Below are positions 1,079 through 3,481 of a stretch of 64,000 nucleotides of DNA, in pieces. The notes under the pieces are model-generated. The model had not been told where the DNA came from, made no database searches, and saw only the letters and a list, made by a program, of their open reading frames with translations. Position 1 is the stretch's first letter; the number at the start of each line of letters is the position of its first letter. Made by a program: the position numbers and the translations under genes. Source of the stretch: Mucilaginibacter sp. UR6-1 (GTDB lineage Bacteria; Bacteroidota; Bacteroidia; Sphingobacteriales; Sphingobacteriaceae); contig NZ_JAJIWP010000001.1 in assembly GCF_020880975.1 (NCBI RefSeq), forward strand, positions 62,001 to 126,000. The letters run 5' to 3'.

Positions 1079-1825
1079 TTGCATTTTCCTGTTGACTTAC
1101 ATATCGGCAAACTTTCGCTCCCCATACACTTCATCTGCGAAACACTTTCTTATTTCATTGGCTACCGTTGTTACAGTTACCTGCGCAGGCAGGTAAACGA
1201 TAAAATAAGTGATTATAACCGCCTGATTATTTTTGTTGGTGCCGCCGCCGGGGCTTTTTTAGGCTCACATTTGGTCGGCATTCTTGAAAATCCCGAATAT
1301 TTAAAACAACTCAGTCTTTATAATTTCATGGCCAATAAAACCATCGTAGGCGGTTTGCTTGGCGGGTTGATAGGGGTTGAACAGGTAAAAAAAGCCATCG
1401 GCGTAAAAGCCTCTTCCGGCGATCTGATGGTTTATCCACTGATAGTAGCCATGATTATCGGGCGTACAGGTTGTTTCTTCGCCGGGTTGGAGGATGGTAC
1501 TTATGGCGTTGCGTCCACCTTGCCCTGGGCCATCAATTTTGGCGATGGCGTATACCGGCATCCTACCAATTTATACGAGATTTTGTTTTGGCTGATGCTG
1601 TTGATAGCCTTACTATCGCTCAATAAAAAGTACACATTTGCCGATGGTGCCAGGTTTAAAATGTTTATGGTGAGCTACTTGTTGTTCAGGTTTTTTATTG
1701 AGTTTATTAAGCCTGCCTACTTCTTTAGTTTCGGCCTTTCGGTAATACAATTGGTATGTTTAGGCGGATTATTGTATTATTACAAGGTATTTACCCATCC
1801 TTCAAAACTGATTACTTATGCCTGA
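1079..1825 (+). CDS. Lgt-like (prolipoprotein diacylglyceryl transferase family) membrane protein
   Basis: A polytopic protein of about 248 residues. GRTGCFFAG (128-136) matches the Lgt signature, HPTNLYE (161-167) matches the HPTQLYE motif, and RFFIEF resembles the conserved C-terminal arginine motif. Lgt transfers the diacylglyceryl group of phosphatidylglycerol to the lipobox cysteine. The segment that in E. coli Lgt reads MSFHGG and carries an essential histidine here reads TIVGGLLGG, with no histidine, so ordinary Lgt activity is doubtful. No ATG is available: the start is TTG at 1079, or TTG at 1052 in the same open frame. The stop overlaps the next gene by 8 bases, so the two are probably translationally coupled. 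Confidence 0.8.
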   Translation: MHFPVDLHIGKLSLPIHFICETLSYFIGYRCYSYLRRQVNDKISDYNRLIIFVGAAAGAFLGSHLVGILENPEYLKQLSLYNFMANKTIVGGLLGGLIGVEQVKKAIGVKASSGDLMVYPLIVAMIIGRTGCFFAGLEDGTYGVASTLPWAINFGDGVYRHPTNLYEILFWLMLLIALLSLNKKYTFADGARFKMFMVSYLLFRFFIEFIKPAYFFSFGLSVIQLVCLGGLLYYYKVFTHPSKLITYA

Positions 1826-3215
1826 ACGTCCGTACATCTATTATGATTTTACCCTCAGCATTTGTTCAACCTGCCTGCGGCGGGTTGATGCCAAAATAGT
1901 TTTTGAGGACGAAAAGGTATATATGCTTAAAGTGTGCCCCAGGCATGGCCGCGAAAAGGTGCTGATAGCTACTGATATTGAGTATTATAAAAACTGCCGT
2001 AACTACGCCAAGCGCAGCGAGATGCCTTTAAGGTTTAACACGGCAACACACTATGGTTGCCCATATGATTGCGGCCTGTGTGCCGACCACGAGCAGCACT
2101 CATGCCTTACAGTTATAGAGGTAACCGACCGTTGTAACCTTACCTGCCCAACCTGCTATGCCATGTCATCGCCGCATTACGGGCGGCACCGTACGCTGGA
2201 GGAGATTGAGCAGATGTTGGATGTGGTGGTACGTAACGAAGGGCAGCCCGATGTAATACAACTGAGCGGCGGTGAACCCACGGTGCATCCCCAGTTTTTT
2301 GAGATACTGGACATTGCCAAAACCAAACCTATTAAGCACCTGATGCTGAATACCAACGGCATCCGCATAGCCAAGGATGAGGCCTTTGTTGAACGGCTGG
2401 CCAGCTACATGCCCGATTTTGAGATCTACCTGCAATTTGATTCGTTTGAGCAGGAGGCGCTGGAAAAACTGCGTGGCGAGGATTTGCGCTGGGTGAGGGA
2501 AAAGGCAATCGAACATCTTAATAAATACAATCTATCGACCACATTAGTAGTCACCCTGCAAAAGGGAGTGAATACGCACGAGATAGGCAAAATCATTGAG
2601 TATGCGTTAAAGCAGCGTTGTGTGCGTGGTGTAACCTTTCAGCCAACGCAACAGGCAGGCAGGCTCGAAAACTATGACGAAGCCACTGAGCGCTATACCA
2701 TGACCGAGGTACGCAGTGCCATACTGGAGCAAACCAGCATCTTTAACCATAACGATCTGATTCCGGTACCCTGCAACCCGGATGCGCTGGTGATGGGCTA
2801 TGCGCTGAAACTGGGCGATCAGGTTTTTCCGCTTACACGGATGATCAACCCGGATGACTTGCTGGACAACTCAAAGAACACCATAGTTTATGAGCAGGAC
2901 GAGCAGTTGAAGCTGCATCTCCTCAATATGTTCAGCACCGGCAATTCGGTTGATAAGGCCAAGGAGCATCTTAAATCCATCATGTGCTGCCTGCCCGAGA
3001 TTGACGCGCCAAACCTGGGCTATGATAACCTGTTCAGGGTTATCATCATGAATTTTATTGACGCGCAGAATTTTGATGTACGCGCCATTAAAAAATCTTG
3101 TGTGCACATCGTGAACAAGGACATGAAGATCATCCCGTTTGAAACCATGAACCTGTTTTACCGTGATGACAAAATAGAATATCTCAACCAGTTACGTAAC
3201 GAAATACCTGTATGA
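1818..3215 (+). CDS. Radical SAM protein of the MJ0619/tetraether-synthase-like group
   Basis: A 465-residue protein. The radical SAM motif CNLTCPTC is at residues 106-113 (CX3CX2C) and GGEPT at 151-155. It is preceded by CSTC (16-19), a cysteine at 40, and a second cluster at 81, 85 and 88 (CPYDCGLC), implying further metal or Fe-S sites. This N-terminal cysteine layout is that of the MJ0619-like methyltransferase and tetraether lipid synthase proteins, which act on unactivated carbons such as lipid tails or pterin-linked substrates. Assignment to that group is from remembered motif layout, not a search. It overlaps the Lgt-like gene by 8 bases and the next gene by 4, suggesting one coupled unit acting at the membrane. 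Confidence 0.85.
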   Translation: MPERPYIYYDFTLSICSTCLRRVDAKIVFEDEKVYMLKVCPRHGREKVLIATDIEYYKNCRNYAKRSEMPLRFNTATHYGCPYDCGLCADHEQHSCLTVIEVTDRCNLTCPTCYAMSSPHYGRHRTLEEIEQMLDVVVRNEGQPDVIQLSGGEPTVHPQFFEILDIAKTKPIKHLMLNTNGIRIAKDEAFVERLASYMPDFEIYLQFDSFEQEALEKLRGEDLRWVREKAIEHLNKYNLSTTLVVTLQKGVNTHEIGKIIEYALKQRCVRGVTFQPTQQAGRLENYDEATERYTMTEVRSAILEQTSIFNHNDLIPVPCNPDALVMGYALKLGDQVFPLTRMINPDDLLDNSKNTIVYEQDEQLKLHLLNMFSTGNSVDKAKEHLKSIMCCLPEIDAPNLGYDNLFRVIIMNFIDAQNFDVRAIKKSCVHIVNKDMKIIPFETMNLFYRDDKIEYLNQLRNEIPV

Positions 3216-3481
3216 CGCCTGAACAAAATCCCGACACAAATAAGCGCCCTGTTTACATGGGCATTACCGGCGTTAACATAATTATACTTGTTGGTTATAC
3301 GATAATTTGTGGCATGTTGGGCGAGGAGGGATTAATATTTCAAATGGTTATAGTATTTATCCATGCTGCCGTATGTGTAATTATTGCACCTTTCGCGCGT
3401 AAGTGGGAATGGGTGCTTGCTGGCATTTTGGTGTTAATAATTGGTATGTCAAGCTGTTATGGTTTAGCGGTAATGCTTTAA
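3212..3481 (+). CDS. small membrane protein (89 aa) coupled to the radical SAM gene
   Basis: The start overlaps the upstream stop in an ATGA arrangement. After a short polar N-terminus (residues 1-15) there are three hydrophobic segments, at about 16-36, 41-60 and 65-88. No recognised family motif. The overlap with two upstream genes suggests a membrane partner of that system, but nothing in the sequence shows what it does. Confidence 0.75.
   Translation: MTPEQNPDTNKRPVYMGITGVNIIILVGYTIICGMLGEEGLIFQMVIVFIHAAVCVIIAPFARKWEWVLAGILVLIIGMSSCYGLAVML

Follow-up and report, generated by a model that had tools for sequence, protein, structure and literature searches.

A widespread three-gene module of an Lgt paralog, a Tes-related radical SAM enzyme and small membrane proteins: a candidate link between protein lipidation and radical lipid chemistry

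Introduction

What could an Lgt-like membrane protein, a radical S-adenosylmethionine (SAM) enzyme with additional cysteine clusters and a protein of fewer than 100 residues accomplish together? This question is raised by three genes near the start of a 64,000-nucleotide stretch of Mucilaginibacter sp. UR6-1 (contig NZ_JAJIWP010000001.1, positions 62,001 to 126,000; hereafter the window), which are encoded in the above order by three plus-strand frames overlapping by 8 and 4 bases (Table 1). An earlier note, made from the letters of this DNA, had described three overlapping genes, as was borne out, and had proposed joint action at the membrane, with putative carbon-carbon or methyl chemistry on a lipid or lipoprotein anchor as an example. 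Joint action of a lipid type is now strongly supported by co-occurrence, by synteny across multiple phyla, by one gene fusion and by the separate clade of the Lgt-like proteins. Our data indicate that the three genes almost certainly constitute one functional module, as judged from their co-occurrence, synteny and fusion, and that this module is wider than the earlier note had guessed. As a tentative reading, we propose that the Lgt paralog lipidates a cysteine of the small protein and that the radical SAM enzyme acts on the lipid tails.

Co-occurrence and synteny of the three genes

Within Mucilaginibacter, the genomes with strong matches to each of the three proteins formed identical sets (41/73 genomes each; G000-G072, the window's own genome included), whereas none of the three genes was found in the remaining 32, nine of which are less than 90% complete, rendering absence there unsure. 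A homologue of the small protein adjoins the radical SAM gene in 41 genomes of the genus, often as tandem copies. Three more members of the class carry the radical SAM and Lgt-like genes together, with small frames bearing a C-terminal cysteine adjoining the radical SAM gene in two of them and one such frame lying between the two enzyme genes in the third. Identity to the window's proteins within the genus was highest for the radical SAM enzyme (85-97%), followed by the Lgt-like protein (64-84%) and the small protein (27-74%).

Among 395 sampled Bacteroidota genomes, in which the radical SAM family was defined by NF045646 (E <= 1e-30) and the Lgt-like family by our alignment A2 (E <= 1e-25), the radical SAM gene was found in 34, the Lgt-like gene in 37 and both in 32 (32/34 and 32/37; Fisher 1.8e-39). 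The failure of the trio to be conserved together, which the earlier note had named as a refutation of its proposal, is contradicted by these counts in the genus and the phylum. The two genomes with the radical SAM gene and without the Lgt-like gene (G181 and G414) possess enzymes (L111, L138) that keep the Tes-like Tyr459 and an FC(T/S)YN tail; in two others (G384, G151), the two genes sit on different contigs of the draft. Linkage is not perfect in the opposite direction either, with five genomes showing an Lgt-like match, strong in G134 and weak in G204, G283, G374 and G457, without the radical SAM gene. Of the regions examined, those of G283 and G204 resemble an ordinary FYGG-type Lgt, and that of G134 (L257) contains an orphan relative, perhaps a remnant.

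The conservation extends well beyond this phylum. We compiled 151 unique loci anchored on the radical SAM gene (four duplicate loci removed before counting), including at least 45 from Mucilaginibacter and 76 from named genomes, the latter being what duplicate removal left of the best 80 loci, ranked by their resemblance to a single query. In 140/151 loci, the radical SAM gene has an Lgt-like gene on its own strand at a distance of up to 4.5 kb; several of the other 11 are cut by contig ends, L119 and L122 have the gene elsewhere in the genome, and L111 and L138 are the Tes-like cases mentioned above. Among these best 80 loci, the 76 remaining span 13 named phyla and one unassigned, and the Lgt-like gene is near the radical SAM gene in at least 11 named bacterial phyla; Cyanobacteria are among the module carriers. 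A single frame of 707 residues in one Phycisphaerales metagenome-assembled genome (L216) fuses the Lgt-like (21-239) and radical SAM (266-707) proteins. The distances among the radical SAM enzymes and among the Lgt-like proteins correlate (r 0.86, n=100; 0/999 permutations as high) over 100 of the 140 loci, with 39 Mucilaginibacter loci and the fusion left out, a correlation that could also arise from nothing more than the common ancestry of the host organisms. One metagenome-assembled genome labeled Thalassarchaeaceae (archaea; L177) carries a radical SAM gene, an Lgt-like gene and two frames ending in a transmembrane (TM) helix with a cysteine; transfer or mis-binning may account for this.

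A conserved cysteine in the small membrane protein

The small protein exceeded no family cut-off in Pfam or NCBIfam, no convincing further copies were found in its own genome (best other E 0.1), and its predicted structure (predicted local distance difference test [pLDDT], 79.3; predicted template modeling score [pTM], 0.55) was of too low a confidence to be used in a fold search. The gene is present in one to five tandem copies, an automatic count over 41 loci giving one copy in 23, two in 16, three in one and four in one. Its counterparts elsewhere were collected as same-strand frames of 45-170 residues with at least two predicted TM helices next to the module, the cysteine not being a selection criterion. 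A cysteine that ends the last helix and is no more than 20 residues away from the C-terminus was present in 157/166 adjacent frames (66/66 in Mucilaginibacter, 91/100 outside), these items being frames of unproven gene status among which close relatives recur. Far fewer controls had it (distant frames of like kind, 9/58; nearby opposite-strand frames, 4/13; near versus far, Fisher 8.6e-31). In most cases the motif reads [ILV]-G-[FLN]-[GSA]-[TIASV]-C, followed by a tail with a median of 7 residues.

At least one qualifying small protein was found in 116/151 loci, and looser criteria applied by eye added a candidate in 22 further loci, bringing the total, as a matter of judgement, to about 138. 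These additional candidates comprise long or overlapping frames, proteins in five Paenibacillus-type loci with a zinc-finger-like head, one TM helix and an ICG motif close to the C-terminus (one scanned: PF00643), and proteins in four Pseudomonadota loci with the cysteine at the end of the first TM helix. The frame at L174:4898-5158, encoding a B-box zinc finger, one TM helix and a C-terminal cysteine motif, lies directly upstream of the Lgt-like gene, and frames resembling it by eye are present in L175, L195, L217 and L220.

The cysteine was kept in 62 of 63 frames, rich in members of the genus and not chosen by cysteine (four unrelated or cut frames having been removed by hand beforehand), as were an Asn and a Tyr of the first TM helix. 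In alignment A3, comprising 26 homologues from several genera, only Met1, Gly78 and Cys82 were invariant; because a motif filter had been used to select these rows, the invariance of Gly and Cys is not independent evidence, and all that the alignment reveals is the lack of any further conserved position. Lysine and arginine were richer on the side preceding the cysteine-bearing helix in 147 frames, poorer in 8 and tied in 2, the corresponding figures being 87, 3 and 1 outside the genus and 17, 37 and 4 for distant control frames; over stretches of unequal length, 136 frames were richer and 4 poorer, with 17 ties. According to the positive-inside rule, the side rich in these residues is cytoplasmic, and the cysteine is therefore predicted to lie outside, where Lgt works. 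This charge bias supports an outward orientation of the cysteine, like that of a lipoprotein cysteine.

A distinct clade of Lgt paralogs

The motifs GRTGCFFAG, HPTNLYE and VGG in place of HGG, to which the earlier note had drawn attention, are present in the Lgt-like protein, which exceeds the cut-off of PF01790 (77.1 versus 24.9 bits) and falls below those of the NCBIfam Lgt equivalogs (42.4 of 334 for NF000778; 38.2 of 118.9 for TIGR00544). In a structure comparison of its AlphaFold model (pLDDT, 90.4), the top row was E. coli Lgt (5azb), with a Z of 13.7 over 237 residues, the next row scoring 6.2. At least one other Lgt exists in each of 12 named genomes examined and in the window's own genome. 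A tree of 42 module Lgt-like proteins and 19 other Lgt proteins, built by a quick method and containing some long branches, separated the two sets by one branch (Shimodaira-Hasegawa-like approximate likelihood ratio test, 97). Profile scores agreed with this separation, with module proteins at 277-414 and other Lgt proteins at 43-94 in the 12 genomes (L248 gave no score); divergent module proteins score lower, such as 142-217 in L203, L145, L197 and L143. The possibility that the protein aligns as a normal Lgt with its histidine elsewhere, also foreseen in the earlier note, thus holds in part: the alignment with 5azb is nearly full-length and a conserved His occupies the Tyr26 site (67/70 Bacteroidota rows), but the clade is distinct.

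In E. coli Lgt, Arg143 and Arg239 are essential, and Arg143 lies at the phosphatidylglycerol site, as described in the available text of PMC4728403. Both are among the columns kept in 70/70 Bacteroidota Lgt-like rows (G142, R143, G145, G154, E202, Y235 and R239 in E. coli numbering), and the same columns are invariant in 43 chosen rows from several phyla. The catalytic-type histidine reported missing by the earlier note is indeed replaced by Val90 at the HGG site; its loss is not special, because another Lgt of the own genome has Tyr there in the alignment, with Phe at 26, Cys at 146 and Ala at 235. The loss of the HGG histidine is accordingly not diagnostic, and because this other Lgt differs at key residues, residue loss alone is no sign of a dead or odd enzyme. 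That Lgt is encoded by a frame of 395 residues (G000:C1:956742-957821; L141), in which Tyr replaces His103 and Cys replaces Asn146; two other Lgt loci, from M. phenanthrenivorans (L232, L239), have YGG and GRIGC motifs as in L141.

A radical SAM enzyme on a Tes-type scaffold

The radical SAM protein matches Radical_SAM (PF04055) and Zn_ribbon_HMPTM (PF23545). Searched against the PDB at an E cut-off of 1e-10, a profile of its family gave no match other than Tes (7tol/7tom; E 2.9e-100), in line with the earlier comparison of its extra cysteine clusters to those of MJ0619/Tes. The best-scoring NCBIfam model for the window's enzyme was that of the radical SAM (seleno)protein TrsS (NF045646; 322.8 of 490 bits); its score to Tes (NF045702) was 275.1 of 450 bits, the best of 20 diverse members reaching 305.7; as it falls below both cut-offs, the enzyme is neither by those rules, and the TrsS cut-off was exceeded in 0/395 Bacteroidota genomes. 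Tes ligands are preserved at the rubredoxin-like site as well as at the N-terminal and radical SAM clusters (148-151 of 151 rows per column), in a residue count that retains four duplicates and leaves out L111, L138, L122 and L144. At position 459, these left-out enzymes have Tyr (L111, L138) or Ile (L122, L144). The CC and CVH cysteines of the C-terminal region suggest a cluster with other ligands there.

In L046 (G023), the radical SAM frame contains one in-frame TAA, representing a pseudogene or a sequencing error. In L069 (G007), a 45-residue copy of the radical SAM C-terminus (about 68% identity) lies within the array of small genes, as if the tail of the enzyme gene and a small gene had been duplicated in tandem. 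A role in defense was rejected: in PADLOC, the other two proteins had no match, and the radical SAM core had none beyond partial ones to viperin, at 48 to 52 bits.

Proposed mechanism and competing explanations

The supported parts are that the genes form one unit, that the Lgt paralog has an Lgt fold with the lipid-site arginines, that the radical SAM enzyme is built on a Tes-type scaffold, and that the small proteins carry a conserved, outward-facing cysteine. In the mechanism that we favor, the Lgt paralog in the cytoplasmic membrane would take diacylglyceryl from phosphatidylglycerol by means of its conserved Arg pair and would transfer it to the conserved cysteine at the outer end of an in-to-out TM helix of the small proteins. 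The acceptor would be a lipobox-like site, usually near the C-terminus rather than within a signal peptide at the N-terminus. Acting on hydrocarbon chains from the cytosolic side, like Tes, the radical SAM enzyme would then alter the acyl tails of the protein anchor or those of the donor lipid, carbon-carbon coupling being one example. For lipidation of the cysteine, the sequence data leave the chances about even, and action of the radical SAM enzyme on the tails is slightly less assured. Tes binds two lipids and links the ends of their tails by way of an intermediate that is bonded to a sulfur of a cluster (available text of PMC9433317). By analogy, and as speculation, the tail of an anchor in the outer leaflet could meet a tail of the inner leaflet in the middle of the membrane. 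The fullest form of the proposal, in which a dedicated Lgt paralog lipidates a C-terminal or internal lipobox-like cysteine and a Tes-type radical SAM enzyme rebuilds the tails, for example into a membrane-spanning protein anchor by cross-leaflet joining, is doubtful.

Several observations weigh against lipidation by the Lgt paralog followed by tail chemistry. E. coli Lgt is inactivated by mutation of Tyr26, His103 or Glu151 (PMC4728403, as far as its available text goes); in the Bacteroidota Lgt-like rows, the His103 position is hydrophobic or small in 70/70, the Tyr26 position is His as given above, and the Glu151 column holds other residues, yet many rows have an acidic residue shortly after it and this loss is not secure. 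To these is added the fact that the other Lgt of the own genome likewise differs at Tyr26 and His103. The fused protein of L216 has, by eye, FAF at the expected equivalent of Arg239. In the radical SAM enzyme, Tes Tyr459 is replaced by Ile in 140/151 rows and by Val in 5, and the C-terminal cysteines are unlike those of Tes. No countable small protein was found in six loci uncut by a contig end (L111, L138, L122, L158, L160 and L189), while that of L201 lies 2 kb away and L151 has one doubtful candidate. The classical lipobox [LVI][ASTVI][GAS]C was matched by only 2/157 proteins, and Cys82 of the window lies 7 residues from the C-terminus, outside any N-terminal signal by which a classical lipoprotein is recognized.

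Homology of the radical SAM enzyme with Tes would also suit the synthesis of membrane-spanning lipids, in which that enzyme couples phospholipid tails as do Tes and Mss, the bacterial membrane-spanning lipid synthase. In this case the Lgt paralog would handle a lipid head group or move diacylglyceryl onto a small molecule, with the small protein serving as a scaffold whose cysteine is structural or redox-active and unlipidated. Branched tetraethers have been proposed for bacterial Tes homologues (PMC8941075 and PMC11868695, in their available text), a reading that serves as a clue to a palaeotemperature proxy. Such a role appears rather unlikely for the module, given that it leaves unexplained why the most conserved residue of the small protein occupies the position of an Lgt-substrate cysteine and why this protein diverges fast and recurs in tandem, and that Tes Tyr459 is absent. 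The module is, moreover, also found in Cyanobacteria, which are not known to have iso-branched acids. For Mucilaginibacter, the available text of PMC10025309 reports no membrane-spanning lipid. Rapid divergence and tandem copies would be at home in a lipidated peptide akin to the diacylglycerol-bearing ribosomally synthesized and post-translationally modified peptides (DAG-RiPPs) known from Bacteroidota (available text of PMC12636315); the C-terminal cysteine and its tail of about seven residues, whose median length fits this idea, would be modified by the radical SAM enzyme, lipidated by the Lgt paralog and possibly released as a lipopeptide signal or antagonist. We consider this distinctly unlikely: no conserved transporter or protease was noticed beside the module, where no systematic search for one was made, and peptide maturases cover only part of the radical SAM enzyme (among 25 of 53 NCBIfam matches listed). 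The usual lipoprotein peptidase, furthermore, wants Gly, Ala or Ser before the cysteine, and these occur there in only 40/157.

The substitutions at His103 (by Val) and at Tyr26 (by His) could mean that the Lgt paralog is a dead enzyme, binding without transfer, with the small proteins acting as membrane subunits of the radical SAM enzyme or presenting lipids to it. Such an arrangement is improbable in view of the columns R143, R239, Y235, E202 and GRxG, kept throughout the Bacteroidota and multi-phylum rows described above, and of the other Lgt of the own genome, which also lacks His103.

If lipidation of the small protein combined with tail chemistry is correct, the module would tie protein lipidation to radical lipid chemistry. 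The tetraether reading would then fail for those bacterial Tes homologues of this clade that join an Lgt paralog in modifying a membrane protein, and lipidation sites could exist outside N-terminal signal peptides, where lipoprotein predictors would miss them.

Relation to known systems

Lgt itself, the prolipoprotein diacylglyceryl transferase of lipoprotein maturation, shares with the module paralog its fold, PF01790 and the Arg143/Arg239 site, and the module's acceptor-like cysteine lies at the outer end of a TM helix. The module differs in that its paralog forms a separate clade beside another Lgt, has Val for His103, is coupled to a radical SAM enzyme and has a dedicated small membrane partner whose motif is non-classical and usually C-terminal. 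The tetraether synthase Tes (GDGT-MAS; MJ0619, 7tol) resembles the radical SAM enzyme in the rubredoxin-like site, the N-terminal cluster and the radical SAM motif, and Met439 is present in 123/151 rows; in the available text of PMC9433317, Met439 and Tyr459 are completely conserved in 1000 archaeal Tes homologues. In contrast to Tes, the module enzyme has Ile for Tyr459 and other C-terminal cysteines and is found mostly beside an Lgt-like and a small protein, in bacteria. The likeness to TrsS lies in the best-scoring model, the difference in a score below its cut-off. DAG-RiPPs of the Chryseobacterium type resemble the module in having a small precursor with a cysteine that is lipidated after modification by a metalloenzyme, whereas they use an N-terminal lipoprotein signal, the ordinary pathway and a multinuclear nonheme iron-dependent oxidative (MNIO) enzyme, and the term "radical SAM" is absent from the main text of PMC12636315, insofar as that text was available. 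Unlike in these peptides, the cysteine of the window protein and of the 157 frames lies at the end of the last TM helix and not in an N-terminal signal.

In the open-licence papers searched, no account of a module of an Lgt paralog, a radical SAM enzyme and a small protein was found; PMC8939145 and PMC7641849 mention Lgt together with radical SAM, in their available text on unrelated matters. The parts come from known superfamilies, except for the small protein; any novelty, putative as to function, would reside in the system.

Features of the window and neighboring genes

The positions of the three genes and of their notable residues are collected in Table 1.

Table 1. Features of the three-gene locus, in window coordinates (rSAM, radical SAM enzyme)
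Feature	Position	Strand	Remarks
Lgt-like integral membrane protein (Lgt paralog)	1079..1825	+	248 aa, TTG start; PF01790
Tes/TrsS-related radical SAM enzyme	1818..3215	+	465 aa; PF04055 and PF23545; 7tol E 5.8e-64
Small 3-TM membrane protein, candidate substrate	3212..3481	+	89 aa; below every family's cut-off
Lgt-like His17, at E. coli Lgt Tyr26 position	1127..1129	+	H in 67/70 Bacteroidota Lgt-like rows
Lgt-like Val90, at E. coli Lgt His103 position	1346..1348	+	V/M/I/T/A/L in 70/70 rows
Lgt-like Arg129, equivalent to E. coli Lgt Arg143, phosphatidylglycerol site	1463..1465	+	70/70 Bacteroidota rows; invariant in 43 multi-phylum rows
Lgt-like Arg204, equivalent to E. coli Lgt Arg239	1688..1690	+	70/70 Bacteroidota rows; invariant in 43 multi-phylum rows
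rSAM N-terminal CX2C...CX2H metal site (rubredoxin-like in Tes)	1863..1946	+	Tes C9, C12, C33, H36: 150, 150, 151, 148 of 151
rSAM N-terminal auxiliary [4Fe-4S] ligands GCPYDCGLCADHEQH	2055..2099	+	Tes C73, C77, C80 columns: C in 150/151
Radical SAM CX3CX2C motif	2130..2156	+	151/151 rows
rSAM C-terminal region, MCCLP and SCVHI, altered cysteines	2982..3113	+	Ile for Tes Tyr459 (140/151)
Lipobox-like motif IIGMSSC, predicted outer end of small-protein TM3	3437..3457	+	Cys82 at 3455-3457; Cys in 62/63 rows

In one subgroup of loci, a methyltransferase of the isoprenylcysteine carboxyl methyltransferase (ICMT) family is encoded between the radical SAM and Lgt-like genes (L109, L137, L142 and L143 by Pfam; L110 and L156 by eye). 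Eukaryotic ICMT enzymes act on C-terminal lipidated cysteines, and the presence of this neighbor gives a hint, and only a hint, bearing on lipidation of the C-terminal cysteine. DUF4395 exceeded its cut-off in L137 and L142 and fell short of it in L109.

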